Source: an uncultured Bacteriovoracaceae bacterium
GTDB taxonomy: Bacteria > Bdellovibrionota > Bacteriovoracia > Bacteriovoracales > Bacteriovoracaceae
Reading direction: 5' to 3'
NCBI GenBank assembly: GCA_950054155.1
Contig: CATLOT010000025.1
Span: forward strand, 1-55,461
Length of the DNA: 55,461 bases
Both the position numbers and the translations under genes were made by a program. This document shows positions 15,220-42,960 of the stretch, piece by piece (the stretch's first letter is position 1; every line of letters begins with the position of its first letter). Below the pieces are notes generated by a model. That model was not told the DNA's origin, ran no database searches, and saw only the letters and a list, made by a program, of their open reading frames with translations.

Positions 15220-16440
15220 CTAAGAACCCATCGGTCTAAGCATAAATGGATATTTCACTGGTACTTTTACAGCACCCTTTGGCTTTGGAAATTGCCATCC
15301 CATCATTTTCTTTTGAATACACTTAAGAACTTGAGGATCTTTTAAAGTCGCTCCCGTCACTTTGGCATAATTCAATTTCCCAGCGGGGTTAATTTCAAAA
15401 TTTGTTTGAACAAGGCCTTGAATCCCAGGCTTAACTTTAAGCCTTTCTTCATAACAACGCCTTACTTGACTCAAGTACTTGGCAATAGTGGCGTTAATTG
15501 CATATCGACTAATACCGCCCTCAAGAACCATATCAGAACTACTGACAGCAATAGCAGAAATACCAGTCCCACTTCCTGAGGCTACGAGCGTGTTGCCATA
15601 GCCGCCTTTACCACCGCCAGAGGTTCCCTTTGTCACAAGCTTACCACCTAGCCCTGCGACCCCAGTGTTTCCAACAGTCGTTTTCTTCAAACCTTTACCC
15701 AGGTTGGTAAGAACCTCACCACCACTTCCAGCGTCTCCGCCTTTACCAGCGCCGGCCGTCGCCTTTTTAAGGTCTTGAGGAACTCCACCGACAACATCTT
15801 TTACTGTCTTTGAGCCAACCATTCCAAGAAAGCCGAGATTTCTCTTTACTGCTCGCTTAGAACGCTGAGCTTTGGTTAGAGGTTTAACTTTAATATTGGG
15901 TTTAACCTCATTTCTTTGCACATTCACAGTTTTTACTTTTTTGATGATCTGTACTTTGAGAGGCTCTACAATCTTCTCTTCTTCAACTTCCTCTTCAACA
16001 GGAGTGTCCTGCATGAAGTAAATAATAGGAATCAAAAGAAAGGTAAGAAGGAAGGTTAATTCCAACACACGACTCATCCAACTCGCATTATCTTCATGAT
16101 CGACTAGTAGAGTATTTACGTAATCAGCCTGACCATTAACGAGTTTATAAGAGCCTGCTTTAGTTTCTAAGAGCCAACCACCGTCAATAGCTCGGGCTTC
16201 GCAATTATCAAGATTCTTAACTGTAAAGCCGGCCTTACTCTCCTTGTCTTCCACAAGGTCAAAGCGACAGGCCCAAGCATGCTTGGTGAAATCAAAGCCT
16301 TGCCTCTTTCTCGTGGCAACCCGCTCTTCAGCGCGTGATTGGCTAATGAAGCCAAATTGCTCGTGAAAGCCAAAATCCCCACTTACAACGTTTTTAAGAA
16401 TTTTTATGAGCTCTCCCTGCTCCGTTTCAATAGCAATCAT
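15220..16440 (-). CDS. AgmX/TonB-like envelope-spanning protein (GltG/GltJ-like)
   Basis: The N-terminal about 120 residues are cytoplasmic and carry no FHA motif I can see. One membrane helix spans about 124-143. A proline/lysine-rich and then glycine-rich periplasmic linker (about 145-310) follows. The C-terminal about 95 residues match the AgmX/PglI-type TonB-like domain: VRRCYEERLKVKPGIQG, then LNYAKVTGATLKD, then CIQKKMMGWQFPKPKG, ending VKYPF. Such proteins carry energy from the proton channel to the outer membrane in gliding. The start overlaps the preceding stop by four bases (ATGA). Confidence 0.8.
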   Translation of the reverse strand: MIAIETEQGELIKILKNVVSGDFGFHEQFGFISQSRAEERVATRKRQGFDFTKHAWACRFDLVEDKESKAGFTVKNLDNCEARAIDGGWLLETKAGSYKLVNGQADYVNTLLVDHEDNASWMSRVLELTFLLTFLLIPIIYFMQDTPVEEEVEEEKIVEPLKVQIIKKVKTVNVQRNEVKPNIKVKPLTKAQRSKRAVKRNLGFLGMVGSKTVKDVVGGVPQDLKKATAGAGKGGDAGSGGEVLTNLGKGLKKTTVGNTGVAGLGGKLVTKGTSGGGKGGYGNTLVASGSGTGISAIAVSSSDMVLEGGISRYAINATIAKYLSQVRRCYEERLKVKPGIQGLVQTNFEINPAGKLNYAKVTGATLKDPQVLKCIQKKMMGWQFPKPKGAVKVPVKYPFMLRPMGS

Positions 16441-16685
16441 TCAACTGCCTCCCCGAAATCGTCTGCCATGACGTCTAAGAAATCTTCGCGAAACTTCAAA
16501 AGTCCGCTATCTTTTTCACCAATATTACCTGTTACCACTGCCATTTCTGGCTTCTTGCGCTCACCCTCGATAAGAAGCGACTCAAAGTCAATGCGCCCTG
16601 AAGCCTTATACTTAACCTTAGGTTTCTTCTCTTGTGCGCTGACACTCAAAGAGATAATCGCCAAAATAATCAAAAGCTTATTCAT
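16437..16685 (-). CDS. small periplasmic protein of the gliding cluster
   Basis: The 82-residue protein has a signal peptide (LLIILAIISLSVSA) and a short mature part with the motif IDFESLLIEGERKKPEMAVV, an acidic and amphipathic end, and no cysteine. Its position between the TPR protein (8-nt overlap) and the AgmX-like protein (ATGA overlap), with AAGGAG before the ATG, argues it is a real subunit. It could correspond to a small Glt protein such as GltF, but that is by position only. Confidence 0.6.
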   Translation of the reverse strand: MNKLLIILAIISLSVSAQEKKPKVKYKASGRIDFESLLIEGERKKPEMAVVTGNIGEKDSGLLKFREDFLDVMADDFGEAVE

Positions 16686-19575
16686 TACTCTCTCCTTTGG
16701 GGACTACGACAGGTTCTGGCCCAAGAGCTTCAAGACGACCCTTATAATAAGCAGCAAGCCTTGCCACACTCTGATCTTCATAAAAAGACTTAAGCTCTTT
16801 AAGGGCTGATCTATTATTAGGCTCTTCTAAAAGTTGAGCTTTGAGCTCGCTGGCCCCTTTCAATTCCTCAAGAGCAAGCTCTCGACTTGGAGTTTTTTCT
16901 TCCATTGGAATTAGGGAAGCATACTGAGTAGGGTTACTTTCAAGATTAGAACTAATTCTCTTTAATTCATCTTCTTTAAGCTCTGTCTTGAGATCTTTCA
17001 TCTGCTCTTCTAGAAGGCGTTGATAATCACCTCTTACAGTCTCAAAGGGAACCGCCATTTGCTGCAGTTGAATCTGTACTTGAGCTAAAGTGGCCTCATC
17101 AAGGTCTTTAGGTAATGGTGTTGCCAGGATATCCTCGACCATTTTCCCATAAACACGAGTAACCATATGAAGGATATAGACTCTTGTTTCAAGATCAGCT
17201 CCCTCGAGATATTTCTTTGATAGAGTGACAAAGTTTTCGATTCGCTTTGTTCTCTTTTTAAAGCGGTACTGACTATAGCGGCCATAGAACTTGTAATTCA
17301 TGGCATTCTTCATCGGCTTTTCAAACTTCTTAAGCACGATGCGCGACCAGATCGGTCCTTGAGACTCGCTTTGGGCCATAATGAGCTTTCTGTTTTGAGC
17401 GCTTGGTTTCTCAAGTTCCAATCGACGTGCAAGGCTTAACTTTCTCTTCAGACTCCACGGAAGAAAGAGGGCCTTAGAGTCAATGAGCCCAGCTTCATCA
17501 AGAGTTAAGAAGAGAACCCCTTCGATTTCTTTGGGGAGGCTTTGAGAGCGCTTCATTTTCTTCATCATTTGACTCAGGATACGATCTCTTTGTCCTCTAT
17601 TCTTATCGAGCTCATAGAGAAGAGCAATTTTAAGATAGAGTTCATAGGGAGCCTTAAGACCCTGCTTTTTGAGGTTGAGCTTCTCCTGGAGTCGAGCGGC
17701 ATCAGAATAACGTCCCATAAGCTCATACTCATTCATGAGTGCTTCTTCATCATTGGCCTTTTCAAGTAGCTTGATCAGCTTTTCCTGGTCTTTAAACTTA
17801 ACGGCCAAGACCTTTGCATTGGAACAAGATTTCTTTTCATAAACCCCTTCAAAGCAAAACTTATAAAACTCATCGAGACTCTCTTTGGAGTCCGTCATTT
17901 TAGCTGCTAAGGCAAAGCGAGCATCAGTTTTAAGCTTACTCATTTCCTGGTTTTCAGAAGCAAGTTTCTTATCTTTTAAAGAAAGCTCTTCCGTTGCGCC
18001 CTTCCATAATTCAACTTGATCAATAATGCTGGAATAATCATCCTTAGAATTAAAAATATCGAGAACAAGGTTTTGAGAAAGAAGGGCCCATTTTCCAAGG
18101 GCTTCGCCCTTAGCTTTTCTCTCTAAGGCCGCGTCAACAAGACCTTTAAAGAGAGGAAGAGCTGCCTCAAAATTCTTCTGAGAGTAATACTCGCGAGCGG
18201 CGACATAGCGAAACTCTTCAGCTTCTTTAGTAGGGCTTAGAATTTCAGCGAGGGCGAGGGCCTCCTCAATAATAATGGGACTTAGCTTAAGCTCAGTTTC
18301 TCCTTTCTTAGTCTTAACTTCACTCTGTAGTTTTTGGGCTAAGGAAAGTCTTGTTTGGCGAAGTTTTCGAATCTCACTCTTTTTAAAGCCAAAGCCAATA
18401 TCTTCTTTTATCCACTCTCCAAGGCGAATAATCTTATTCTGCTTATTCTCCTCAGCCTTGAGCCAGCCTTGCTGAAGTTTCTTTCTCAAGTCGTCATTAG
18501 GATAGATGGTGAGATAAATATCAATGGATCTTTTAAGGTGAGTATTCAGTTCTGGCGCAACATTGGCCTCACTATCGACTTGAACGAGGTAGCGGCGAAA
18601 GATCTTCTTAACTTCACTAGCATGATCTTTCTTGGTTGGGATATCTTTTGCGCTTCGTTTTTCCATGGCGAGAAGAAGTTCATCAACTTTTTCCCACTTT
18701 CTAAAACCGTAAAATTCTTCGAGGAGACGAGTTTCAAAGTAAAGGCTTGGTGTCTTTGCATTGACCTCTGAAAGGAGATTTGCGCCCGCACGACGATTAC
18801 CGGCAACATAGAAGGCTTCAACGAGCTTTTGAACGAGCTCAGGTCGCCCCGTCTTCTTTGCAAGAGCCGAAGTATACTCCAGTTCTTTAAAGCCATCTGT
18901 ATCGGCATTGGACATAAAGAGAATAAGATCTTGAAGAGAAGATTCCCTCACTTGATCACCTTCTGTCCAAAGCGATGCTTTCATTTCAGCTATAGCATCA
19001 TCGAGCTTTGTATCTTTAAAGTAGAGCCAGCCTTTTCGATAGTGAGCGTAGTTACAACTCGCCTTAACATCACAAAGCTCTATCGCTTGGTCATAGAATT
19101 TCTTGGCCTTGGGATAAACTGCATCTTGCTCATACCACTCAGCTAGGGCAAGAGAAGCCTGTTCTTTCATTTTCTTAGGAACTTTAGGATGGGCCTGAAC
19201 TTCAAGATAGTAGGGTTCAGCGCGCTCATACTGGTCAAGGCGACTTAAAAGTCGCGCCATCTGAAACTGAATTTTAAGTCTTGTTAGCCCTTCAGCTCTC
19301 TTCACTCCATCCGTGCCTTCAAGGCTATGACGGTAGAGGACCAAGGCTTTTTCACGGTTCGCCTTAAGCTCCTCGTGATTTCCCTCCCCTCCTTCTTTGA
19401 TGGAAACATCAAAGTAGAGGTCGGCAAGGCGCAGAGTGAGTTCAACTCTGGCCGGATCATCAAGTTCAAGAGAGTCTCTTAATTCCTCCATCTCTTGAAT
19501 CAAAAAATGTAAATCCTTAGCCTGTGAAGACAGACAAAAAAAAGTGAATAAGAAGAGGATCCCAATGACTTTCAT
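16678..19575 (-). CDS. large periplasmic TPR protein of the gliding cluster
   Basis: The 965-residue protein has a signal peptide (ILFLFTFFCLSSQA) and many helical repeats. Clear TPR-like units include LTLRLADLYFDVSI, ARLLSRLDQYERAEPYYLE, ALAEWYEQDAVYPKAKKFYDQAIE and HYRKGWLYFKDTKLDDAIAEM. Later repeats are more divergent and the C-terminus is coiled and charged. Large TPR proteins of this type (AgmU/GltD, GltE) are periplasmic scaffolds of the Myxococcus gliding machine, and the same role is inferred here. The stop of the preceding TolR-like gene overlaps its ATG by one base. Confidence 0.65.
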   Translation of the reverse strand: MKVIGILFLFTFFCLSSQAKDLHFLIQEMEELRDSLELDDPARVELTLRLADLYFDVSIKEGGEGNHEELKANREKALVLYRHSLEGTDGVKRAEGLTRLKIQFQMARLLSRLDQYERAEPYYLEVQAHPKVPKKMKEQASLALAEWYEQDAVYPKAKKFYDQAIELCDVKASCNYAHYRKGWLYFKDTKLDDAIAEMKASLWTEGDQVRESSLQDLILFMSNADTDGFKELEYTSALAKKTGRPELVQKLVEAFYVAGNRRAGANLLSEVNAKTPSLYFETRLLEEFYGFRKWEKVDELLLAMEKRSAKDIPTKKDHASEVKKIFRRYLVQVDSEANVAPELNTHLKRSIDIYLTIYPNDDLRKKLQQGWLKAEENKQNKIIRLGEWIKEDIGFGFKKSEIRKLRQTRLSLAQKLQSEVKTKKGETELKLSPIIIEEALALAEILSPTKEAEEFRYVAAREYYSQKNFEAALPLFKGLVDAALERKAKGEALGKWALLSQNLVLDIFNSKDDYSSIIDQVELWKGATEELSLKDKKLASENQEMSKLKTDARFALAAKMTDSKESLDEFYKFCFEGVYEKKSCSNAKVLAVKFKDQEKLIKLLEKANDEEALMNEYELMGRYSDAARLQEKLNLKKQGLKAPYELYLKIALLYELDKNRGQRDRILSQMMKKMKRSQSLPKEIEGVLFLTLDEAGLIDSKALFLPWSLKRKLSLARRLELEKPSAQNRKLIMAQSESQGPIWSRIVLKKFEKPMKNAMNYKFYGRYSQYRFKKRTKRIENFVTLSKKYLEGADLETRVYILHMVTRVYGKMVEDILATPLPKDLDEATLAQVQIQLQQMAVPFETVRGDYQRLLEEQMKDLKTELKEDELKRISSNLESNPTQYASLIPMEEKTPSRELALEELKGASELKAQLLEEPNNRSALKELKSFYEDQSVARLAAYYKGRLEALGPEPVVVPKGESNE

Positions 19576-20090
19576 TAACGATGTCCTACAACGGCCAATT
19601 CAATGGACTGGAACTGGCTACTCGTTAAAATACCCATAATTTGAGCGACAACCGTTGATTGGATCTCCTTATCAGCTTGGAGGTTAATCTCACCTGTAAA
19701 AGGAGTTGTGTGAGACTTCGCCCAATTCTTTTTAATAACATTAAGTTTCTTTAAAAGACCGTTAGGTTTTTTTGAAATGTCCTCAGTCTTTCCTACTTTT
19801 TCTTGGTCAAGGTAGAGAAAACCATCACTTGAAATAGCAAGGACAGGTGCTTCTCTTACTTGAGCTGGAGTGATGGAGTTAGGAAGCTCTACCCCTTTGG
19901 TCACAAGTATCTCAGGAGAACTTGAGAAAGTTTGAAGAAGAAAAACCACCAACATACTGAACATATCAACCATTGATGTTAACATGAGGGTGAAACCAGC
20001 CGCTTTTAAGCCCCAATGCTTCTTTCGTTTTCTGTTAACGAGATGTTTTTCAAATCCATCTGCTGCTACCATACTTTGATTTAAAATCAT
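19575..20090 (-). CDS. aglS: ExbD/TolR-family proton-channel subunit (second copy)
   Basis: A single membrane helix (about residues 30-55) carries the essential aspartate in LTSMVDMFSMLVVFLL, where protons pass in TolR/ExbD/AglS proteins. A periplasmic domain follows. A cytoplasmic stretch of about 30 basic residues precedes the helix, longer than usual. It is the second of two TolR-like genes after a TolQ-like gene, the order of aglR-aglQ-aglS, so the symbol is assigned by order only. GGAG lies 8 nt before the ATG. Confidence 0.75.
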   Translation of the reverse strand: MILNQSMVAADGFEKHLVNRKRKKHWGLKAAGFTLMLTSMVDMFSMLVVFLLQTFSSSPEILVTKGVELPNSITPAQVREAPVLAISSDGFLYLDQEKVGKTEDISKKPNGLLKKLNVIKKNWAKSHTTPFTGEINLQADKEIQSTVVAQIMGILTSSQFQSIELAVVGHR

Positions 20091-20101
20091 GGTGAGCTCT
20101 C

Positions 20102-20584
20102 CTAGTTACCGCTTGCGGTCAATACACCGATATTGACGATCTTATTCTTTCTGAGAACATCCAGTGTAGAAATAAGACTGCCATAGTCCACAGTACTTCG
20201 TGGTGTCACTGTGGCAGTTGCAATTTCGATGCTTTTCTTTTTAAAAGTTAAAACTTGAGAGATGAGGGTTTCATTAAGGTTCGCCATAAGCGCCTCAAAT
20301 GTCTCCCCCTCGACTTTTAGGCCTTGCACACGCTTGCCATTCTTCTTGAGATTGACATTCATTTGGGTAGGGTCTTTAAAAACAAGATCCAGATCAAAAG
20401 TTTCCTTCTTTTCTTGAGCGGCACTTGTGCCGTGGCTTTGCTTAACCTCAACAGTTCCAATTTCAATCCAAACTGCAGTGATCAAGAGGAAACACACACA
20501 TGTTGAAAGAAGGTCAATAAAAGGAGTTAGGTTCAATTGAGCATCGAGCTCTTTCTTTTGTCCTAGTCCTGTTTTCTTTCTCAT
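20102..20584 (-). CDS. aglQ: ExbD/TolR-family proton-channel subunit (first copy)
   Basis: The membrane helix starts at LNLTPFIDLLSTCVCFLLI, with the conserved aspartate in FIDLLS that carries protons in ExbD/TolR. The periplasmic part ends with a short beta-alpha domain (TVDYGSLISTLDVLRKNKIVNIGVLT), as usual for the family. The length of 160 residues is typical. It follows the TolQ-like gene by 45 nt and precedes the second copy by 11 nt. Probably forms a motor channel with both. Confidence 0.8.
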   Translation of the reverse strand: MRKKTGLGQKKELDAQLNLTPFIDLLSTCVCFLLITAVWIEIGTVEVKQSHGTSAAQEKKETFDLDLVFKDPTQMNVNLKKNGKRVQGLKVEGETFEALMANLNETLISQVLTFKKKSIEIATATVTPRSTVDYGSLISTLDVLRKNKIVNIGVLTASGN

Positions 20585-20629
20585 AACTACCCCAATCCGT
20601 TGGTGCTTATTAAATCCTTAAAAAATCTC

Positions 20630-21334
20630 TTAGTTTCTCGTAACACTCTCTGTTTTGCCTTGAGAGGCTTGAAGAGGAGCTTGATCTTCTTCATTCATGT
20701 GACTTTCTGTGTAGAAAAGGAAGTCATGATAAATCTCACTCGCTTGTTCTGTAAGAGATGAAATGATCTTTTCCGTTCTGTTTTGGAAAATCGCGTAGGC
20801 AACAAGCGCTGGAATTGCGGCAACAAGACCAAAGGCTGTTGAGTTTAGGGCTTCAGAAATACCTTGAGAAAGAAGGTTTGCTCTTTCAACAGGTGAAGCT
20901 GCGGCCACACCAGCAAATGAGCTAATAAGACCTGTAACAGTACCGAGGAGACCAAATAGAGTTGAAACGTTACCAAACATGGCAAGAAAGCCTGTTCTTT
21001 GGTCATAGCTAGAAATTTCTTTAGAAAGTTGCTCGTCCATTCTGGCCTGAAGAGCTTCGTCTCCTGCACCAGCACTTCTCATCTTACAAGCGATAGAGGT
21101 GATTTTACCTAGGCTCGTCTCACCTGCGCCCATGTCAATATAATCTTGAGCTGCTTTGAAATCCCCTTGAGCAATGAAGCTAAGGATATTCTTTCTAAAC
21201 TCCTTAGGAGCTTCCTTATGCTTGAGATAAAGCGAGATCGTTCTTTCTACAATAAATGCGACTGTTAATAGACCAAAAGCCAAGATGAAATACATAAAGA
21301 AACCACCGGCTTGGAACTGCTGTACTAAACTCAT
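20630..21334 (-). CDS. aglR: ExbB/TolQ/MotA-family motor subunit of the gliding machine
   Basis: The 234-residue protein has three membrane helices in the TolQ arrangement: one near residues 12-30, then a long cytoplasmic loop, then two near 120-142 and 160-185. The family motifs FGLLGTVTGLISSF and GISEALNSTAFGLVAAIPALVAY line the proton path. It is the first gene of the ten-gene minus-strand cluster, has a very strong ribosome-binding site (AAGGAGGAGGG) and a probable promoter about 60 nt upstream. Context with two TolR-like genes and Glt-like proteins favours AglR over TolQ, because no TolB or Pal gene is nearby. Confidence 0.82.
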   Translation of the reverse strand: MSLVQQFQAGGFFMYFILAFGLLTVAFIVERTISLYLKHKEAPKEFRKNILSFIAQGDFKAAQDYIDMGAGETSLGKITSIACKMRSAGAGDEALQARMDEQLSKEISSYDQRTGFLAMFGNVSTLFGLLGTVTGLISSFAGVAAASPVERANLLSQGISEALNSTAFGLVAAIPALVAYAIFQNRTEKIISSLTEQASEIYHDFLFYTESHMNEEDQAPLQASQGKTESVTRN

Positions 21335-21469: not shown

Positions 21470-23230
21470 TTATGAGGGGCCGCATCCAAAAGAGCCGAGG
21501 TCGCTCTTTTCAATTCGCGCTTCACCCTGACCAGGTCTTGGGCTATGTTCACGCATATAATAAAGACGAATGCTTTGAAGTTTCTTATCTGGGTCTTTAA
21601 AGTGTTGATTCCACTCGCGACAAATATAACGCACGAAGCTTCCCCGATAACCAGAATAGTTACTGCTGCTGAGCCTTTCCCAGACTTTACGCCAAAAGCC
21701 ACTGGGATACTCCGTTTTTAGGTCTCTTGGCCTTTCAAAGCTTACATTTTTTTTACGCCAAGGATCAAACTTCTTTCCATTGGCAAGCTTTCCTGACAAG
21801 ACAGGCCAGCCTTCCATTGTTGCCGGAAAGGGAGAGAACATATCCCAACGCTGATCCAGCCCGAAAAGATAGTAAGCATTATGGGCATAGCCTGTGAGTT
21901 TATACATCTTCAAGCTTTCAAAGCCCGTGGCATTAAAGAGAATTCCCATGACTACAAAGAAAGTAAGGAAAACTAATTTTACCCTTTTAATAACTAATGA
22001 TGGTGACTTTACACCACCAGCTCCCACAAACTTTAAAATAGGCGCAAAGTAAGCCCTTCTCGTCGCGACAAAGTCGTAGACTCGTTTACCAAGTCCCTTT
22101 GGGAATAGAGAAAAGAGGAAAAAGAAAAGAGGTGTGCCACTTTGCTTTAAAATCATGAGAAAGTTTTCCCATGCAAAATAGACTTCTCCCTCTTCATCTC
22201 TTCCGGCCCAGGATCGTCTCCTGATGATCTCTTGATGAATTTCCTCATCCTTTGAACTAGGAAGAATTTCAATCTCTTGCACCAAAAAGAGAGTTTTAAT
22301 GAGATTGACCATCCGTTTGCAATAGCTGCAATCCTTGTCATAGAAGACTGTATAGGTTTTCTCAGGGCGGCGTGTGAGGGCGTCCCAAAAAGACCCCGGT
22401 ATAAATATTAACCACATACTTATGCAAATATAGGGAAAGAGACCAATTGAAAATGTCACACTTATTCCCAAGTGAAACCCAATAAAGAGCACCACACTTA
22501 AGAGCCTCATAAAGTTTCTTTTAAAAGGGATCAAAAGTAAGAGCGGTCCAATAAGCTCAAGTAAGAAGGTCCCAATACTCATCAGAGGAAGAAGCGATGG
22601 CGCCCTTAATAAAAGTCTTCCTAGACTCGTTGTAAAAGTATCAAGATGAAGAGCAAAATGGAGAGCTTCCCCCGTACTATGCCAATAGGGATGCCACTTA
22701 AAGAGCGCCGTTGTGAGGTAAATGAGAACTGCTTGAATTATCCAGGCGGCGACACTTAGGCCACTAAACTCAAAATCCTTAAGCTCTTCACTCTCCTCAA
22801 TAAAGTAACCCCTATCCCAACTCGCGATTTTTTCCATGGGAAGGAAATAACTCCACAGAAAAAGAAGAGGAAGAAGAACATCACCACCGTTCATACTTAA
22901 AGGAAAGCGACTTTGAATGTTGAGAAGATAGATCCAGATGATAATATTAACAACTTTTGTCCTGTACCCTAGGGCAAAGCATAGGCTTAGAATCATTCCG
23001 CTTATAAAGACAAAAAGAGCAAAGGTTGGCGAACCGAAATAATAGAAGAGATTGAACTTCTCTATAGGACCAAAGTAGAGGTCCATCTCAGAAGTTCCTA
23101 TTATTCCTTGATGGGAGTAAAAAGCTGTAGCGTATGGAATTCGTTCGAAGAAATAAAAAAAAGTAACCAGCCCTAGGAATACTCTCACTAAAGCAATCGA
23201 TCTTAAATCAATGGAGAATACTTTTTTCAA
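21470..23230 (-). CDS. HTTM membrane protein fused to a DCC (DUF393) thiol-disulfide domain
   Basis: The first about 290 residues contain several membrane helices resembling the HTTM domain related to vitamin K-dependent gamma-carboxylase. From about residue 296 a DUF393-type domain starts with VFYDKDCSYCKRMVNLI, whose CxxC pair is the DCC redox motif. One more membrane helix and a soluble tail with LDQRWDMFSPFP follow, as in other HTTM proteins. The start is TTG with AGGAG 7-9 nt before. It lies between flagellin and the gliding operon, on the same strand as both, with a terminator before it. Function is unknown. A role in thiol oxidation or modification of exported proteins is a guess. Confidence 0.75.
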   Translation of the reverse strand: MKKVFSIDLRSIALVRVFLGLVTFFYFFERIPYATAFYSHQGIIGTSEMDLYFGPIEKFNLFYYFGSPTFALFVFISGMILSLCFALGYRTKVVNIIIWIYLLNIQSRFPLSMNGGDVLLPLLFLWSYFLPMEKIASWDRGYFIEESEELKDFEFSGLSVAAWIIQAVLIYLTTALFKWHPYWHSTGEALHFALHLDTFTTSLGRLLLRAPSLLPLMSIGTFLLELIGPLLLLIPFKRNFMRLLSVVLFIGFHLGISVTFSIGLFPYICISMWLIFIPGSFWDALTRRPEKTYTVFYDKDCSYCKRMVNLIKTLFLVQEIEILPSSKDEEIHQEIIRRRSWAGRDEEGEVYFAWENFLMILKQSGTPLFFFLFSLFPKGLGKRVYDFVATRRAYFAPILKFVGAGGVKSPSLVIKRVKLVFLTFFVVMGILFNATGFESLKMYKLTGYAHNAYYLFGLDQRWDMFSPFPATMEGWPVLSGKLANGKKFDPWRKKNVSFERPRDLKTEYPSGFWRKVWERLSSSNYSGYRGSFVRYICREWNQHFKDPDKKLQSIRLYYMREHSPRPGQGEARIEKSDLGSFGCGPS

Positions 23231-23297: not shown

Positions 23298-24131
23298 TTA
23301 ACCAATAAGTTGTAGAGCATTTTGACCTTGAGCATTTGACTGCGCAAGAACTGAAGTACCAGCAGCGTTAAGGATATTAAGCTTAGCGTTTTTGGCCGTT
23401 TCAGCAGCATAGTCAGTATCACGAATTCGTGAATTTGCCGCACTCAAGTTTTCATTACTTACTTGCAGGTTTTGAACAGTTGAAGTTAGTCTATTTTGTT
23501 TCGCACCAAGCTCCGCTCTTTGACCAGAAACTTTCTGGATTGCAGTATCAAGGGCAGCAAGAGCATTTTGAGATTCTTCCTTAGAAGTTACCGCAAGGTC
23601 TCCTACTCCAAGACTATCTAGTGAACTGTTAAGCATTTCTGTATTAAATTTAATACGGTCTTGGAAGTCGTCGTTATTGATACCAATTTGGAAATCATAT
23701 GTTTCTCCAGTACCATTAAGAAGTTTCTTACCGTTAAATTCAGTAACTTGAGAGATACGCTCGATTTCCTGCTTGAGGTTTTGATACTCAAGATCAGTAA
23801 ATCCTCTTTCAGTATCCCCTACTGTATCAGAAGCAGCTTGTACTGAGAGTTCTCTCATACGAATAAGAATGTTTCCGACTTCGCTAAGACCACCTTCAGC
23901 AGTTTGAATCATTGAGATACCATCGTTAGCGTTTCTTTCAGCTTGAGCTTGACCGCGAATCGTTGCTTTCAATTTTTCACTGATCGCAAGACCTGCAGCA
24001 TCGTCAGCTGAACGCACGATACGTGTCCCTGAAGACAACTTACCGAGTGATTTAGCTTGTGCTTCGTTGTTAACGCCTAGAGTACGTTGTGCACTAAGAG
24101 ACGTCGTGTTTGTGTTAATACGTAAACCCAT
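23298..24131 (-). CDS. fliC: flagellin
   Basis: The 277-residue protein is a short flagellin. The N-terminal D0/D1 part has MGLRINTNTTSLSAQRTL and SSGTRIVRSADDAAGLAIS, and the C-terminal part ends ILNAAGTSVLAQSNAQGQNALQLIG, all family signatures. The central variable domain is small (about residues 140-195). It polymerises into the flagellar filament after type III export and so lacks a signal peptide. AAGGAGG precedes the ATG. A strong terminator follows and a possible sigma28 promoter lies upstream. It is a single gene here, whereas related predators often have several paralogues. Confidence 0.95.
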   Translation of the reverse strand: MGLRINTNTTSLSAQRTLGVNNEAQAKSLGKLSSGTRIVRSADDAAGLAISEKLKATIRGQAQAERNANDGISMIQTAEGGLSEVGNILIRMRELSVQAASDTVGDTERGFTDLEYQNLKQEIERISQVTEFNGKKLLNGTGETYDFQIGINNDDFQDRIKFNTEMLNSSLDSLGVGDLAVTSKEESQNALAALDTAIQKVSGQRAELGAKQNRLTSTVQNLQVSNENLSAANSRIRDTDYAAETAKNAKLNILNAAGTSVLAQSNAQGQNALQLIG

Positions 24132-24289: not shown

Positions 24290-24410
24290 GAATTTTTTTC
24301 CGTTTTTTTCTTTTTTTTACCAGAGTAAAACACTCGGAATTATTAAGAAATCTTTACACCTTTCCTTAATATATCCCTTTAAATTTTACCTGTGATTTCC
24401 GATAAGATTG

Positions 24411-27224
24411 ATGAAGATGAGCCAAGCAACAAAGCCCCTTATATTTATTGAACCCCTTTCTGACACTCTCAAAAAACTAAAAGAGGTGGTGGAAGAAAAT
24501 GCTGAAAACGAGGGCATCGAGGTCTATGAAATCGATTCACTAGAGGAAGCGGCACAACTCCTCCCTACTATCGGTCAAAGCTTAACCCTCATGGCGAGCC
24601 CTAAGAAATGCGCCATGATGCTTCAATCCAATCGCAAGACGATCAAAAAGCTTCAATCAAAAACAATTTTACTCTCCCCTAAATCGATTCCAAGAAAAAC
24701 CCTTGATAAATTTATGAAAGTGGGGCTCACAGAATGTGTGGTGGAACCTGTTAATCCCAAAACACTTCTCTATAAAGTTCGCCTTCAGCTGCGCTCAATT
24801 GCGACTCGTAAAGATGAAGAAGAGGAGATGAATAATAAAATTGGTCAAGGAGACACAGAAGAACAAGTTGATACCAACTCAAAGATGCGCGCTGAAAAGG
24901 GAGTTATCCTTGATGAGGGAGACGATAACCCTACAAAAGAAAAGAAGAAGAACCAAGAAGAAAATGTTTTAGAGGATTATCACAAACCTAAGAAGAAGAC
25001 CTATAAAGAAGAAAATATTTCGGGGTTTTATAAGAATAAAACGAAGAAGCGAGAAGACTCTGAAGAAGAAGAATATGAAGAGGAACCCAAGAAAAAAGGC
25101 TATCAAGAAGAGGCCATAGACGGCCACTACAAAGGCAGTATCGAAAAGGCTCAAGAAGTTGAAGAAGAGGAAAAGGAAAAGAAGAAAGCGCCCTCCTTTG
25201 ACTTAGAAGATGATATTGATCAAATCAAAAAACAAATTAATGATGAAGTTGAAGATGAAGTTGCCAAGAAAGAAAAGAAGAAGCAACTTGAGTTTGCTGA
25301 AGAGACCCTTCAAAAAAAGAAGTCTTCCTCATTAGATGTAGAGGAAGATGGGCCTTCTTTAACCCAAGAAAAAGAAGGTGGGGAAGATCTTGGTGGTCAC
25401 TATAAAGGCGAAAGCACTAAAGGGCTTGATATCGAGGAAGAAGGTCCTGAGTTTCGAGAGCGCGCCGAACTAAGTTCGGAAGATTTAAAGGAAACAGAGG
25501 CCTCTAAGAAGCTTGATATAGTCGAAGACGATCCCGAAAAGGATCTGCTTGACGAAAGAGAGGATGAGGCCATCGATGGACATCTGCGTGGAAAAGCTCA
25601 AAAGCACCTCGACATTGAAGAAGATGAAACCGACTTTGTCGAAAAAGCTCCCGAAGCAGAAATTGAAAGACAAGAAGATGAGGTTTATAAACTCGATGTT
25701 GAAGAAGACCTTACCCCCTCACAAAAGAAGGCGAAGGAAGACGGCTACGATCCCAATGAGGAAGAGGATAAAAAACAAGATGCCAAGGCTGATGACATTG
25801 ATGGATACCTCCGCGGAGGGGCTGCTAAGAAGAATCTTGATATTGAGGAAGACGAAGACCTCTATCATGATGAAGCCCTCGCCCAATTAAAAGAGCGAAA
25901 GAAGAAAGAGCGCAACTCTCTTGACATTGAGGAAGATAGTGAAAAAGACCCTCTCCTTCAAGAAAAAATACTCGAAGAGGAATACAAGAGAGAAAAGACT
26001 GAAAAGCTTAGTGTCGTGGAGGACCACGACAGTGATCATCGCCAAGAAAAAGGCCTTCAAGAGGAAGAAGACGATTTTAAGAAAAAGAGTCAAAAACTTG
26101 ATATCGACGAAGATGGTTTCTCAAAAAGAGAGGGGGCCCAGGCAAAAGAGAAAGAAGAAGGCGGAAACAACCGCACTAATGCCCGTGCTGACCATATAAA
26201 GACTCATTACTCAAGTAAAGAAAGTATCCGTCATGATAATAATGATTGGGGAAATGGTTGGGATAAGAAGGGAAAAGCTCAAGATGACTTTCCTACTGAG
26301 AAGAATGAAGAAAAGGAACTCATTATTGAAAGTGAGGACCTAGGAGAGCAGACCATCGATTATGGGCAACTCAAGAAGGAGTTTGAAGGCATCACTATTG
26401 ATGGCATCCCTAACAAGAAGAAAAACTATGGTCTCTTTGATAATGTCGCCGAAATAAAGACCTATACCAAAACAGTACTCAATCCTGAGGGTCAACTTGA
26501 AGAGATGGCCTTTGAGGAAATTCAAAATGAAGTTGAGGAAGAGGAAAAAGAATTAGTTTTTGAGCCAGATTCAAAGGGTATGGAAATCGCTATCGAAGTG
26601 CTTGATTTTTATTTTGATGAAAAGGCAGATCCTGAGAAGCTCTGTGCGTTTATCTCCCAAAAAGTCAGCGAGAGGTTCTCAGGTGACACTATCTTTTACA
26701 CCAGTAAGAGAGGAGCGGAACTCACTTGTCTGTTCAATGGCTTTATTGAAAATAGCGCCGGAAAAGAGCCCGTAAGGCCATCAGCTGAGGAGCTAGAGAG
26801 TCTCTCAAGAGGTGAAAGAAAAGAGGTTGAAGATGATTTTAAAAAGGATCATCACGACTATGAAAAACAAAGAGATGCCTTTAGGAAATCATGGGAATTT
26901 GGCGCTTTTCGCCGCTTTGATCAGTGGAAGGAAATGAAAACTCCTCAGTGGCTAGATCACACCTTCCAAGCGAGTGAAAATGAATTTGTCTTTCCTTTTT
27001 ACGAAGGCGTGACTCTCTTAGGTCTCGCGGTATTTGTTCCTAAGGAGAGCTTTAACCCTGAAAAAGCCGAATCTCTTGAAGCTATTTTTGAAGCCGCGAG
27101 AGGCCTTTACCTCACTGAATACTATCACGAAGTTGGCTCCACTAAGCAAAGAGAAAAGACAGAGAAACCACCAGAGCAAAAGAAAGGTGGCTTCTTTAGT
27201 AAATTCTTTAAGAGGGGGGCGTAA
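24411..27224 (+). CDS. acidic repeat protein with degenerate receiver and GAF-like domains
   Basis: The first about 125 residues resemble a receiver fold (PLIFIEPLSDTL, then LTLMASPKKC, then VEPVNPKTLLYKVR) but lack the phosphoacceptor pocket. Residues about 135-630 are extremely acidic and lysine-rich, with about ten copies of an LDIEED-like motif and about five of a GHYKG/GYLRG-like motif, and are probably disordered. The last about 230 residues (from MEIAIEVLDFYFDE) resemble a GAF-type domain. The end is basic. The start is ATG 24411 or 24417, neither with a good ribosome site. It overlaps the next gene by one base (TAATG). Role unknown; a scaffold for signalling proteins is plausible. Confidence 0.6.
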   Translation: MKMSQATKPLIFIEPLSDTLKKLKEVVEENAENEGIEVYEIDSLEEAAQLLPTIGQSLTLMASPKKCAMMLQSNRKTIKKLQSKTILLSPKSIPRKTLDKFMKVGLTECVVEPVNPKTLLYKVRLQLRSIATRKDEEEEMNNKIGQGDTEEQVDTNSKMRAEKGVILDEGDDNPTKEKKKNQEENVLEDYHKPKKKTYKEENISGFYKNKTKKREDSEEEEYEEEPKKKGYQEEAIDGHYKGSIEKAQEVEEEEKEKKKAPSFDLEDDIDQIKKQINDEVEDEVAKKEKKKQLEFAEETLQKKKSSSLDVEEDGPSLTQEKEGGEDLGGHYKGESTKGLDIEEEGPEFRERAELSSEDLKETEASKKLDIVEDDPEKDLLDEREDEAIDGHLRGKAQKHLDIEEDETDFVEKAPEAEIERQEDEVYKLDVEEDLTPSQKKAKEDGYDPNEEEDKKQDAKADDIDGYLRGGAAKKNLDIEEDEDLYHDEALAQLKERKKKERNSLDIEEDSEKDPLLQEKILEEEYKREKTEKLSVVEDHDSDHRQEKGLQEEEDDFKKKSQKLDIDEDGFSKREGAQAKEKEEGGNNRTNARADHIKTHYSSKESIRHDNNDWGNGWDKKGKAQDDFPTEKNEEKELIIESEDLGEQTIDYGQLKKEFEGITIDGIPNKKKNYGLFDNVAEIKTYTKTVLNPEGQLEEMAFEEIQNEVEEEEKELVFEPDSKGMEIAIEVLDFYFDEKADPEKLCAFISQKVSERFSGDTIFYTSKRGAELTCLFNGFIENSAGKEPVRPSAEELESLSRGERKEVEDDFKKDHHDYEKQRDAFRKSWEFGAFRRFDQWKEMKTPQWLDHTFQASENEFVFPFYEGVTLLGLAVFVPKESFNPEKAESLEAIFEAARGLYLTEYYHEVGSTKQREKTEKPPEQKKGGFFSKFFKRGA

Positions 27225-28291
27225 TGAAAGGCGTTGATCAAAATAGTGAAAACTACTTCCATGTTGACTTAGAGCTTCTCAAGCCCAAAGCTTACGCCAT
27301 TTACCCCTTTCAAATATTTGTTTATCACCCTATTGCAAAGAACTATAATGTTTTTCTTCATGGAAACTCCCCCCTCACCAAAGAGAAACTTGAATTTCTT
27401 AAGTTTATTACTCAAAAAGGAGGAGAAGTCGCTATCTCGCGAAAGCAAAAGCGAACCTTTCTCCATTCCTGCCGAGTCAAAGAAGAAGATATCCCTTCCT
27501 TAAAAGAAGTGACGGAACATGAGTTTATCACCAGGCAAAGAGAAAGAGCGAAGAAGAGAGAGCAAAAAGAGTCTAAAGAAAAGTTCCACTTTAAAGATGA
27601 GTTAGAAAAGGCGATTAAAAGCGACAACTGGATGCCTCTTATTGAGGAGATTCGCGATCTTGCCCTCACCTTCCCCTATACTATTAGTCATACTGTTAGC
27701 CTGGCGAGCACTCTCGCTGAGAAGCTTCTAACCAAGGATAGCCCGACGAATCGTGTGGTTGCTCTTAGTGCACACTTAGCTCAAGGCTGTGGCATGAAAG
27801 ACCCTCTTGCCCTTGGAGATCTCATTTGTGCGGCCTTTCTCGCCCATCTTGGTCACACCCAGATGCAAATGCTTTTCTCTCAAAAGGCATACCTCGAACT
27901 TAGCTCCCCTCAGCGACGAGATTATAGCAAACACCCTGGTCTCTCTCAGCACATGATTAGAAAGTCTGGTCTGATCATAAGTGAGCGCTGTAATAAGATT
28001 CTCTATCAACACCACGAGCGCTTTGATGGAAGTGGTTATCCCGAATATAAACAGGGTCAGTTTATAGAACCCTTAGCTCTTGTACTCGGTGCGAGCGCTC
28101 ACATCCTCGAGTACAGCAGTGGAAAAATCACAGGCAGTCCAGTGGCCATGAGTGTTGTCATTAAGAACATGAAAGAAAAAACACTTTCACCTGGCCTCGA
28201 AATTGAGTTTGGCGACACAATTTATGAAAGTTTGATATACTTATTAGATAGTCCCAAGAAGGAAAATGAGAACACGGCCAATGCGGCTTAG
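27224..28291 (+). CDS. degenerate HD-GYP-like protein
   Basis: The C-terminal about 200 residues match the HD-GYP fold: a histidine in ISHTVSLAS, SKHPGLSQHMI, and HHERFDGSGYP near residues 263-273. The signature HD dyad is altered: AHLGH (H208, L209) stands where LHDIGK is expected, so the metal-ligand aspartate is lost. The protein may bind rather than hydrolyse cyclic di-GMP, or act by contact. The N-terminal about 130 residues are charged with no clear family. It is coupled to the acidic repeat protein (TAATG) and followed 20 nt later by a pseudo-receiver. Confidence 0.7.
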   Translation: MKGVDQNSENYFHVDLELLKPKAYAIYPFQIFVYHPIAKNYNVFLHGNSPLTKEKLEFLKFITQKGGEVAISRKQKRTFLHSCRVKEEDIPSLKEVTEHEFITRQRERAKKREQKESKEKFHFKDELEKAIKSDNWMPLIEEIRDLALTFPYTISHTVSLASTLAEKLLTKDSPTNRVVALSAHLAQGCGMKDPLALGDLICAAFLAHLGHTQMQMLFSQKAYLELSSPQRRDYSKHPGLSQHMIRKSGLIISERCNKILYQHHERFDGSGYPEYKQGQFIEPLALVLGASAHILEYSSGKITGSPVAMSVVIKNMKEKTLSPGLEIEFGDTIYESLIYLLDSPKKENENTANAA

Positions 28292-28311
28292 GAGTATTGA
28301 AGGATAGTTTT

Positions 28312-28707
28312 ATGGCATTAAAATCGAGTATGAGAATTCTTTTAACTGACCCCTCTTCTGGAAATCGTCAGGCCATAAAAAGTATGCTTGGTAATATAGG
28401 TTTTAAAAATGTCACCGAAGCGATTGACGGTGAAAAGGCCTGGCAAAAAATTGAAGAAGCCGGCAGTGAATCTCCTTTTGAACTCATTATTGCAGCCTGG
28501 GAAATTGATAAAATCAGTGGGCTTGATCTTCTCAAAAAAGTTCGTGGAAATGGGACCATCGCTAAAACCAAGTTTCTAATGATTACAAGTGAAGCTGATC
28601 AGCAAAATATTGTTATAGCCGTTAAGTCTGGTGTTAACAATGTTGTGGTTCGCCCTTTTTCTTCAAACACCTTAATGGAAAAGATTGGCAAAATCTTTGG
28701 GGTCTAG
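28312..28707 (+). CDS. receiver-like protein lacking the phosphoacceptor aspartate
   Basis: The 131-residue protein follows CheY along its length (LTDPSSGNRQAIKSMLGNIGF, then ISGLDLLKKVRGNG, then FLMITSEAD, then VVVRPFSSNTLMEKI). Where CheY has the phosphorylated aspartate before a tryptophan, this protein has alanine (A62 in IIAAWEID), and the conserved lysine is arginine in VVRPF. It is therefore probably not phosphorylated in the usual way. The ATG at 28312 has AAGGAT 7 nt upstream. The gene ends with a 4-nt convergent overlap with the hybrid kinase gene. Confidence 0.8.
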   Translation: MALKSSMRILLTDPSSGNRQAIKSMLGNIGFKNVTEAIDGEKAWQKIEEAGSESPFELIIAAWEIDKISGLDLLKKVRGNGTIAKTKFLMITSEADQQNIVIAVKSGVNNVVVRPFSSNTLMEKIGKIFGV

Positions 28708-30227
28708 TCAAGAAAAGCGAGAGTCTTCATTAACGTCGCCATCAATTCTCTCTTTTGAATGGGTTTAGAAATATAGAAATTCATTCCACTATCAAGGGCC
28801 TTATCACGGTCCTCTGAAAAGGCATTTGCAGAAACCCCAATAATGACTGGTCCTTTGGGGATGTCTTCTCGTATTTTCACTGTAGCATCTAACCCGTTAA
28901 GGTTTGGCATTTGAATATCCATAAAGACGATATCAGGCTTTTCTTCTAAAGTACTTTTAACGCCTTCATGACCATCTTTAGCAGTAAGAATCGTTTGAAA
29001 GCCAAGTTTACTCAAAGTCTTATAAAGAACAGCGGTATTGATATCATTATCCTCTACAATGAGGGCCTTCACGTGTTGAAAGGCTTCCGCCTCAAATGAA
29101 GCGGTGACGTCTTCTTGAGATGCAACCCTAACATCACATTCTTTTGCCGTTAAATCGATGGTGACGATCGTCCCCTCTCCATAAGTGCTCTCTATTCTAA
29201 GTTCTCCGCCCATCAAATCAAGGAGCCTCTGACAAATGGAAAGTCCTAAGCCAGTTCCTTCATACTTGCTCGATTTTACATTTTCAACTTGAACAAAGGG
29301 CTTTTTAATAAGCTCGACTTTATCCCCAGGTATTCCAATTCCCGTATCCTCAACACAAAGAGAAAGTCGACCATTTTCATACTCAAAGGAGACAGAAATA
29401 CTCCCATCATCAGTAAACTTAACACTATTTCCAATAATATTAATCAGAATCTGGCGTAACCTCTTCGCATCCTGAACTAAGAATTCAGGAACACTACGGC
29501 TTAGATAATAGCTAAATTCGAGACTCTTATGCTCAATCTCGCTTTTAAAAATTTGCTCAACTTCTTCAATTAAAGTACGCGGAGAAAATGATTCCTTCTT
29601 AATCTTCATTTTCCCTGCTTCTAGTTTTGAAAACTCAAGAATGTCATTGATAATATGGAGGAGCCCATCTCCAGCATTCTTGATGTAACCTAAAAAGTCC
29701 CTCTTTTCTGAATCCACTTCGTCCTCTAAGAGGACTTCCGTAAACCCAAGAATCGCATTTAAGGGAGTGCGGATTTCGTGGGACATATTAGAGAGAAAAT
29801 GAGTCTTAGCTTCAAGGGCGCGCTCTGCCTTTTCTTTTTCTTGTCTGAGGCGCTCCTCATGAAGCTTTCTTTCATTAATATTTTGAATTTGGGAGATAAA
29901 GAAGTCTGGTGAGCCATCACTCTTCTTAACTAAGGAAACTGAGAGCTCGGCCCAGATGAGATTCCCATTAGCATTGATGTAGCGCTTTTCTATAATGTAG
30001 TTTTTGATTTCACCTTTAATTAGCCTCTCCAGTTGAGTCAAATCATCGGCAAGATCTTTTCCATAGGTAATGCTTTGAAAATCAAGAGCAACCAATTCCT
30101 CTTCACTATAACCGAGGAGATCGCAAAGAGCTTGATTCGCCTTAATAAATTGTCCTTCAATAGAAACCAAAGCCATTCCGATCGTCGAATATTGAAAGGC
30201 ATTTAAAAAGAGTTGATCAAGTTTCAT
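28704..30227 (-). CDS. hybrid histidine kinase (PAS-HisKA-HATPase-REC)
   Basis: A PAS domain (about residues 5-125, with ALCDLLGYSEEELVAL and a PAC-like end) is followed by a coiled coil, HisKA with H150 in FLSNMSHEIRTPLNAILGF, an ATPase domain with NIIGNSVKFTDDG, DTGIGIP and GTGLGLSI, and a C-terminal receiver with D437 in VFMDIQMPNLNG and K in YISKPI. All active residues are present. There is no membrane segment, so it senses a cytoplasmic signal. Its ATG overlaps the upstream phosphoesterase stop by one base. No histidine-phosphotransfer partner is visible nearby. Confidence 0.92.
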   Translation of the reverse strand: MKLDQLFLNAFQYSTIGMALVSIEGQFIKANQALCDLLGYSEEELVALDFQSITYGKDLADDLTQLERLIKGEIKNYIIEKRYINANGNLIWAELSVSLVKKSDGSPDFFISQIQNINERKLHEERLRQEKEKAERALEAKTHFLSNMSHEIRTPLNAILGFTEVLLEDEVDSEKRDFLGYIKNAGDGLLHIINDILEFSKLEAGKMKIKKESFSPRTLIEEVEQIFKSEIEHKSLEFSYYLSRSVPEFLVQDAKRLRQILINIIGNSVKFTDDGSISVSFEYENGRLSLCVEDTGIGIPGDKVELIKKPFVQVENVKSSKYEGTGLGLSICQRLLDLMGGELRIESTYGEGTIVTIDLTAKECDVRVASQEDVTASFEAEAFQHVKALIVEDNDINTAVLYKTLSKLGFQTILTAKDGHEGVKSTLEEKPDIVFMDIQMPNLNGLDATVKIREDIPKGPVIIGVSANAFSEDRDKALDSGMNFYISKPIQKRELMATLMKTLAFLD

Positions 30228-34267: not shown

Positions 34268-34416
34268 GATTCCTCCTTGAGCTCAATTTTAAGAGCGAAG
34301 CTCAACTCATAAATAACATGATCATAATATCGCATTGCGACATCACATGATATGGACCCTGTATCAATTACAGATAGCCGTCAAAATTTAAGACACCACC
34401 AATTAAGGACTTGGTG

Positions 34417-34431
34417 TACAATAAGTCTGTG
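34417..34431 (+). promoter_or_regulatory. -10-like hexamer abutting a GTG start
   Basis: TACAAT (34417-34422) is followed by 6 nt and the GTG at 34429. An alternative start at GTG 34414 has AAGGA upstream, so the leaderless reading is not certain. Confidence 0.3.
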
Positions 34432-35760
34432 AAATTAATGATTTTAGATGATAATGACCGCTTCCGGCAATTCCTCATCGCGACCCTAGAAGAGCGCTTG
34501 GGGGAAATAGATGTTGTAGAGGTCACGAGTGCGCGCACTGCGATCATGCTCTTTGAAAGTGATCCCTACTTTCAGGGCTTCATTGCGAGCCTTGATCTCA
34601 AGAAGGGCTCCTTTATGGAGGTCTTCCAGCACTTTCGTTCACGGGAATACACCGTGCCCTTTATAACCTATTCAAATGAGGATCAAGACCTTAATCTTCC
34701 TCACCTCCCCTTTCTCCATAAAGACGAGAAAGATCAGTTCTCCCAATTTACGAAGAAACTCTTTGAAACCCCACCCTTTGTTCAAAGTCCCCATGGTCCA
34801 GAGCAGTACTCCCGTATTCGCCTCTTCTTTTTTTGGCGCTTTCATAAACTCGACTTTCCTCTCTATGTGAGGCTCAACGATGATAAGTACGTCAAGGTTC
34901 TCAACCCCGATGAGCACTACGGTCCTGAGTTTCTAGAAAAGTACCATGATAAAGGCATTGATTATCTCTATGTGAGAAGTCAGGACTTTTCAAAGTTTGC
35001 CCTCTCTCTCTATAAAAAGCCCATTGTTGAAATGGACGAAACTCTTCCTGAAGAAGAAAAAGCACGGCGCAAAACACAATTCATCCAGCACATGGCCCTC
35101 ACCGTTGGCATCACTCCCGATGTGGTTGAAAGCGCTCAAGAAAATGTTGATGGAATTATTGCGGAAGCAAAAGAGAGAAAGACCCTCATTAAGCTTCTTC
35201 ATATCCTTGAAAAGGGCAGCACCTACAATTCTGACCATGCGACTCTCTTGTGCTATTTAACGGCAGCAATGTGTGATGAGCTTGGTTGGACAACCCGACG
35301 ATCAAAAGAGAAGCTTGGTTTTGCAAGCCTCTTTCATGACATCAGCCTTACTGATCCGCGCTTAGCTGTAGTCAACTACCGCTCTCTTAAAGCCCTTGAT
35401 CGCTTTGAAAGCACCCTTAAGCAGCGCTATCTTGAGCATCCTTTAAAGGGCGCCGATTTAGTGCTCGAAATTACAAATGAATACCCGCAAGTGGACACTA
35501 TTATTTCTCAACACCATGAAAGACCTGATGGGAGTGGCTTTCCCTATGGACGAGATTTTAATCAAATCACACCCCTTGCCTGTCTCTTTATTGTTGCCCA
35601 TGACTTTGTTAGCCGAGCCTACGAGCGGAACTTTGACCTCACAAAACCACAAGAAATTCTGGATGATATGTTGGGGGAATACACGCAAGGTCATTTCATG
35701 AAGTGCATGATCGCCTTACAAACAGTTGTGACTAAGAATCAGTTGGAAGAGCAGATTTAG
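34429..35760 (+). CDS. receiver-like / HD-GYP-type signalling protein
   Basis: Three parts can be seen. Residues about 1-115 are a receiver-like domain with DDND near the start but SLDLKKG at the phosphoacceptor site. A middle domain (about 130-190) has LYVRLNDDKYVKVLNPDEHY and LEKYHDKGIDYLYV, typical of the segment before HD-GYP domains. The HD-GYP domain (about 225-445) has SDHATLLCYLTAAMCDELG, FHDISLTD, LEHPLKGADL and SQHHERPDGSGFPYG. The HD dyad is kept but the following GK is SL. It probably degrades or binds cyclic di-GMP. The start may instead be GTG 34414. Confidence 0.75.
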   Translation: MKLMILDDNDRFRQFLIATLEERLGEIDVVEVTSARTAIMLFESDPYFQGFIASLDLKKGSFMEVFQHFRSREYTVPFITYSNEDQDLNLPHLPFLHKDEKDQFSQFTKKLFETPPFVQSPHGPEQYSRIRLFFFWRFHKLDFPLYVRLNDDKYVKVLNPDEHYGPEFLEKYHDKGIDYLYVRSQDFSKFALSLYKKPIVEMDETLPEEEKARRKTQFIQHMALTVGITPDVVESAQENVDGIIAEAKERKTLIKLLHILEKGSTYNSDHATLLCYLTAAMCDELGWTTRRSKEKLGFASLFHDISLTDPRLAVVNYRSLKALDRFESTLKQRYLEHPLKGADLVLEITNEYPQVDTIISQHHERPDGSGFPYGRDFNQITPLACLFIVAHDFVSRAYERNFDLTKPQEILDDMLGEYTQGHFMKCMIALQTVVTKNQLEEQI

Positions 35761-42957: not shown

Positions 42958-42960
42958 ATG
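42945..42960 (+). promoter_or_regulatory. -10-like hexamer abutting the giant gene start
   Basis: TAAAAT (42945-42950) is followed by 7 nt and the ATG at 42958, with no Shine-Dalgarno between. A leaderless start is possible. Confidence 0.3.

Follow-up and report, generated by a model that had tools for sequence, protein, structure and literature searches.

A flagellin-linked gene trio in Bacteriovoracaceae with a pseudo-HD-GYP protein and a degenerate CheY-type receiver

Bd1817 of Bdellovibrio bacteriovorus (PDB 3TM8) is an unconventional HD-GYP protein, described as inactive in PMC4159591, and belongs to the same phylum as the HD-GYP-like protein analysed here. It is the best whole-length fold match of that protein, including the N-terminal domain. 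The two differ in the residues affected: Bd1817 keeps the metal-binding HD residues and is without the GYP tyrosine, whereas the family studied here shows the reverse, with the HD diad lost and Tyr or Phe mostly kept.

Among receivers, the Cle proteins of Caulobacter are CheY-like and no longer need phosphorylation (PMC5677366), which likens them to the trio receiver. They bind c-di-GMP via an added Arg-rich tail according to the same paper, whereas the trio receiver ends at IFGV and has no tail. A pseudo-HD-GYP or acidic partner of Cle is not mentioned in the sections of PMC5677366 available to us. The pseudo-receivers and aspartate-less receivers covered in PMC12632262 and PMC4395418 likewise lack key phosphotransfer residues. 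In contrast to these, the trio receiver is a single-domain CheY whose intact orthologues still occupy the same locus, which allows the transition from CheY to pseudo-receiver to be followed.

A further close system is found at the same locus in relatives, represented by locus L044, with CheY and CheX in the trio operon. Its receiver is homologous to the one studied here (56% identity); compared to it, the latter is without the phospho-switch residues, and genes for an Hpt-like protein and CheX are not adjacent. Searches of the open PMC library, where most subscription journals are missing, listed no publication on the trio operon. The switching of bacterial pseudo-receivers is described as a mystery in a 2025 review (PMC12632262). 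In these relatives of predatory bacteria, phosphorylatable orthologues of the pseudo-receiver persist at the same locus, with the same two partners and beside flagellin. Comparison of the intact and the dead operon state would show what a receiver needs once phosphorylation is gone. Since related genera hold both states (intact CheY with Hpt-like protein and CheX; dead CheY without), the conversion could be replayed experimentally.

Locus layout and flagellin neighbourhood

The trio was found in a contig of an uncultured Bacteriovoracaceae bacterium (CATLOT010000025.1), of which a stretch of 55,461 bp, here called the window, was analysed. The initial annotation had proposed three signalling genes in a row with overlaps, near the flagellin gene and with key residues lost in all three. 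The ORFs of all three (acidic protein, HD-GYP-like protein and receiver) were confirmed. The features of the locus are as follows.

23298..24131, minus strand: flagellin gene, next to the trio and divergent from it (Pfam Flagellin_N 8e-39, Flagellin_C 3e-21)
24417..27224, plus strand: ORF of the acidic scaffold-like protein, about 935 aa
24417..24818, plus strand: conserved head of the acidic protein, possibly a pseudo-receiver (12-row alignment, 68% mean column identity)
25017..26114, plus strand: acidic, probably disordered region with five GxYK/LR-type and nine LDxEED-type motifs, mostly with pLDDT under 50
26571..27134, plus strand: C-terminal domain of the acidic protein, putatively of GAF fold (AlphaFold full-protein model, residues ~740-908)
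27162..27221, plus strand: short tail with GGFFSKFFKRG, similar in 3/3 aligned sequences
27224..28291, plus strand: pseudo-HD-GYP protein with a Bd1817-like layout of N-terminal domain, linker and HD-GYP domain (Pfam HD_5 7.5e-13)
27842..27856, plus strand: AHLGH in place of HDxGK (residues 207-211)
28010..28042, plus strand: retained HHERFDGSGYP with the GYP motif (H263, H264, G271, Y272, P273)
28312..28707, plus strand: degenerate CheY-type receiver with Ala as acceptor, D to P and K to R (Pfam Response_reg 6.7e-15)

The acidic ORF is listed from a TTG at 24408; alignment with relatives makes the ATG at 24417 the probable start. The acidic and HD genes share one base (TAATG) at 27224. The probable start of the receiver is the ATG at 28312, with a TTG at 28297 as a possible one. 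This ATG leaves a 20-base gap after the HD gene, so the overlap is limited to the first gene pair.

The HD and receiver searches covered 129 genomes of the family, many of them incomplete. HD protein orthologues (match E <=1e-18) were present in 65 of these, and 66 HD loci were read, one genome carrying two. A flagellin gene was found within five ORFs upstream at 39 of the 66 loci and was divergent in every one of the 39, bearing out the noted proximity; it is missing within five ORFs at four loci, and another 23 loci end first. That the trio is kept beside flagellin argues against a random decayed copy. The residue losses, fixed in 65/65 aligned HD orthologues and found in the receivers of 12 genomes, are likewise more than chance.

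Some neighbouring genes were recorded as well. A hybrid PAS-histidine kinase-receiver gene (28704-30227, minus strand) lies between the trio and a metallophosphatase gene; none was seen at the equivalent position of the other trio loci that were read. Upstream, on the minus strand, 21470-23230 encodes a fusion of an HTTM domain with a DCC1-like thiol-disulfide oxidoreductase domain. A row of TolQ/ExbB-like, two ExbD-like, TPR-like and TonB-like ORFs (15220-21334, minus strand), named by sequence reading, resembles a gliding-type motor cluster on the same basis; relatives of four of its genes directly follow the trio in genome G004. At 42958-48936 (plus strand), the window encodes a secreted-looking protein of 1992 aa that consists by eye mostly of Cys-containing repeats of ~35 residues.

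The pseudo-HD-GYP protein and the acidic protein

The AHLGH motif was confirmed by comparison with 16 canonical HD-GYP proteins, all of which carry HDxG[K/M]. PmGH, for which alanine mutants of H221, D222 and K225 are reported as essentially inactive (PMC4159591), served as the reference for scoring metal-ligand and catalytic positions. The alignment and tree comprise 65 of the 66 loci, G001 being omitted because its locus, at the end of a contig, yields a fragment of 126 aa. Neither the HD diad nor the catalytic Lys (K225 equivalent) is intact in any of the 65 orthologues. The position of the Asp of HD (D222) is occupied by His in 49, Asp in nine, Asn in four and Arg in three proteins, with H208 in the window protein. 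The equivalents of H221 and D305 are lost in 56 and 57 of the 65, respectively. H250 has its equivalent in 63 proteins, H276 and H277 in 62 each; GxP is retained in 64 and Glu265 in all. In the numbering of the window protein, H263, H264, G271 and P273 are near-invariant, and position 272 has Tyr in 41 orthologues and Phe in 20. At the seven metal-ligand positions scored (E185 was left out), four ligands are kept in 38 proteins, three in 15, five in ten and one in two; the full set is thus absent from the 65 proteins. The positions of K317 and Arg314 of PmGH correspond to Gly and Lys in the window protein, in an alignment mapped by eye.

The structural model of the HD protein has a mean pLDDT of 76, with residues 146-170 under 50. 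Its HD-GYP fold is supported by Foldseek (E 1e-4 to 1e-7) and VIA (Z 15.5-18.6), and Bd1817 matches over model residues 10-343. Taken together, the sequence comparisons give good support to the conclusion that the HD protein is non-catalytic throughout its family, with the GYP side of the pocket selectively kept. A second HD-domain protein of the window (34411-35760, plus strand), whose N-terminus is receiver-like by eye and unrecognised by Pfam, keeps the HD diad (LFHDISLT) without the following Lys.

The acidic protein as a whole has no Pfam or NCBIfam match. Its acidic repeats were confirmed, and Asp and Glu make up 32% of residues 136-720. For the C-terminal domain, which has no Pfam match, GAF domains account for most of the VIA-align rows (Z 8-10, at most 10.1; three-sequence model). 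The head, initially called receiver-like, has no receiver match in Pfam, and its pLDDT is mostly under 55 in the AlphaFold full-protein model. Its best solved-structure profile match is the ArcA receiver at a weak E of 0.04; hhalign against receivers gave a probability of 13%, and NCBIfam models of receiver-bearing proteins gave E values of 0.007-0.016. A receiver is hence only suggested for the head, and its assignment as a proven one was rejected based on the ArcA and hhalign values and the Pfam result. Strong matches of the head (E <=1e-29) are confined to the family among the 144 phylum genomes searched, with weak matches (E 9e-8 to 2e-5) in three genomes of other families.

Intact and degenerate forms of the trio receiver

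The best NCBIfam match of the window receiver is CheY (2.5e-27), under that model's cut-off. The alanine at the phospho-acceptor position, noted initially, was verified; in addition, Pro replaces the second acidic-pocket Asp and Arg the conserved Lys, while Thr is kept. The protein, a receiver by Pfam without phosphotransfer residues, is a pseudo-receiver by definition, and its sequence gives good support to the view that it cannot use the normal phospho-switch.

Most relatives carry an intact CheY as the trio receiver, and an Hpt-like gene and a CheX phosphatase usually come next. Across the 66 HD loci, the in-line receiver is intact in 33 and degenerate in 12; G080, counted apart, has both the Hpt-like gene and CheX, but Asn in place of the first acidic Asp. 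At six loci an intact receiver is encoded on the opposite strand, and the remaining 14 lack a receiver or break off too early. The 33 intact receivers are accompanied by both genes in 29 cases (27 plus two receivers hidden behind antisense ORFs), by CheX only in two and by neither in two (G078, G092), so the association is not strict. Neither gene lies directly downstream of a degenerate receiver at any of the 11 readable loci.

The acceptor of the 12 degenerate receivers is Ala in two, Glu in six and Asp in four (G003, G006, G079, G094), and the second pocket Asp is kept in G063 only. Ten of them belong to genera g1, g6, g17, g33 and g41. The one of g52 groups with these genera in the HD tree, and that of g8 is placed elsewhere. 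The HD tree needs three changes for receiver degeneration. In a 66-row receiver tree, built with three of the 11 g15 receivers and without L108, the degenerate forms group as one clade in 46% of bootstrap trees. The loss falls mainly in one clade, indicating few independent events. In g39 and two of the three g8 genomes, no receiver was found in the operon. Judged by sequence relationships, the degenerate receiver is derived from the operon's own CheY.

The losses, noted initially for all three proteins, do not represent one event: that of the HD protein is family-wide, that of the receiver lineage-specific, and the acidic head is only a possible receiver. Orthologues with intact active sites, proposed as the sign of a decayed copy, do not occur among the 65 aligned sequences for the HD diad and do exist for the receiver.

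Chemotaxis genes were also located elsewhere in the genomes. The window genome has an intact CheY beside CheA (REC C8:110755, CheA domain C8:111879), with a CheX adjoining too; this CheA features Hpt, H-kinase_dim, HATPase and CheW domains. In the CheA-domain survey of 18 chosen genomes, the same pairing was found in G003, G005, G006 and G022. The trio CheX of G008 is the only CheX found in that genome. For G013 and G063 of g8, the searches found neither a CheA domain nor an Hpt-like protein, yet the acidic and HD genes remain, so this pair seems independent of the chemotaxis phosphorelay. A genome-wide loss of Hpt and CheX was considered and proved wrong for most of the degenerate-receiver clade: an Hpt-like protein is encoded elsewhere in most of these genomes, and CheX in those checked.

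The relatives' Hpt-like protein (L044:10437-10940 and homologous loci) has Asp where the P1 domain of CheA has the phospho-His. This residue, D52, is invariant in eight aligned members and conserved to at least 90% in 43, and one of the eight has a weak CheZ match. Because an invariant Asp replaces His, the protein is not called a phosphodonor; possible identities are a pseudo-Hpt and a phosphatase-like bundle.

Proposed function and alternative explanations

Based on these results, we propose that a CheY has probably become independent of phosphorylation and now serves as a subunit of a non-catalytic pseudoenzyme complex linked to the flagellum. Binding rather than catalysis, as suggested initially, is well supported by residue losses in two of the proteins, HD protein and receiver, and is unproven for the acidic protein. 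For a cyclic di-GMP reader, a possible role also raised initially, the pocket retains its GYP side but not the residue at the K317 position of PmGH, as aligned by eye. The long acidic protein, with its possible pseudo-receiver head, disordered acidic repeats and GAF-like tail, would serve as scaffold, and the pseudo-HD-GYP protein would act as a sensor that binds a ligand or partner. In relatives, CheY may join or leave the assembly with its phosphorylation state (CheA/CheX). In the window lineage, whose CheA operon includes a separate CheY, the trio copy would act as a constitutive binding subunit. Gene neighbourhood and CheY ancestry point to the flagellar motor or the flagellated pole as likely output. 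More tentatively, the whole module could work without catalysis, the ligand-binding pseudo-HD-GYP protein and the scaffold deciding when the dead CheY face meets the flagellar motor, with allostery replacing the phospho-switch.

Sequence evolution is faster in the degenerate receiver than in the CheA-side CheY: within the genus, identity to the window copy is 61-80% for the trio receiver vs 83-97% for the CheA-side protein. As it is also missing from some trio loci, relaxed selection is real. These observations, together with an acceptor that varies among D, E and A, agree with decay, in which the CheA-side CheY made the trio receiver redundant and the degenerate copies are late stages of loss. 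We regard this as unlikely. The frame is open in 12/12 genomes, and dN/dS is ~0.08 for G000 vs G005 (dN 0.146, dS 1.93), the one degenerate-receiver pair for which it was obtained, with dS near saturation here and saturated for most pairs. Substitutions are common to several genera (NVVVRPFS-type strand), and a trio-specific signature on the alpha4-beta5-alpha5 face is retained. I103, A104, K106, S118 and A119 are the commonest residues of both intact and degenerate trio receivers and not of the CheA-side CheY (11/12 degenerate receivers, L140 left out; 21 intact; eight second-locus receivers), I103 in just 36% of the degenerate rows. D14, D63, F112 and K115 are changed in degenerate receivers. 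By its sequence, the degenerate receiver thus appears to be no obvious wreck.

An alternative in which the HD protein has kept enzyme activity through a rearranged metal site rich in histidine would fit His in place of the Asp of HD in most orthologues (H208 in 49/65) and the nearly invariant H237, H263 and H264. However, K225 is missing in 65/65 and the H221 and D305 equivalents in most proteins, and loss of activity in the corresponding PmGH mutants of H221, D222 and K225 (PMC4159591) also speaks against it, making a restored enzyme very improbable. Doubtful, though less so, is a competitor of the Cle type, in which a cyclic dinucleotide bound to the pseudo-HD-GYP protein presents the dead CheY to FliM against the real CheY. 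Flagellin linkage, CheY ancestry and the retained GYP side are in line with it, as is the phosphorylation-independent action of Cle proteins on the motor described in PMC5677366; yet the Arg-rich C-terminal extension is missing, and Gly and Lys stand at the base-contact Lys317 and the Arg314 positions, as mapped by eye. The acidic protein could also be a polar hub, i.e. a pole organiser like RomR or FrzS that acts on pili or gliding instead of the flagellum. The likeness stems from the domain layouts of FrzS and RomR, to which the possible receiver head and the long acidic disordered region correspond. In Bdellovibrio, RomR has further been reported as linked to the control of movement and to prey invasion. 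Linkage to flagellin, however, makes this hub role quite unlikely.
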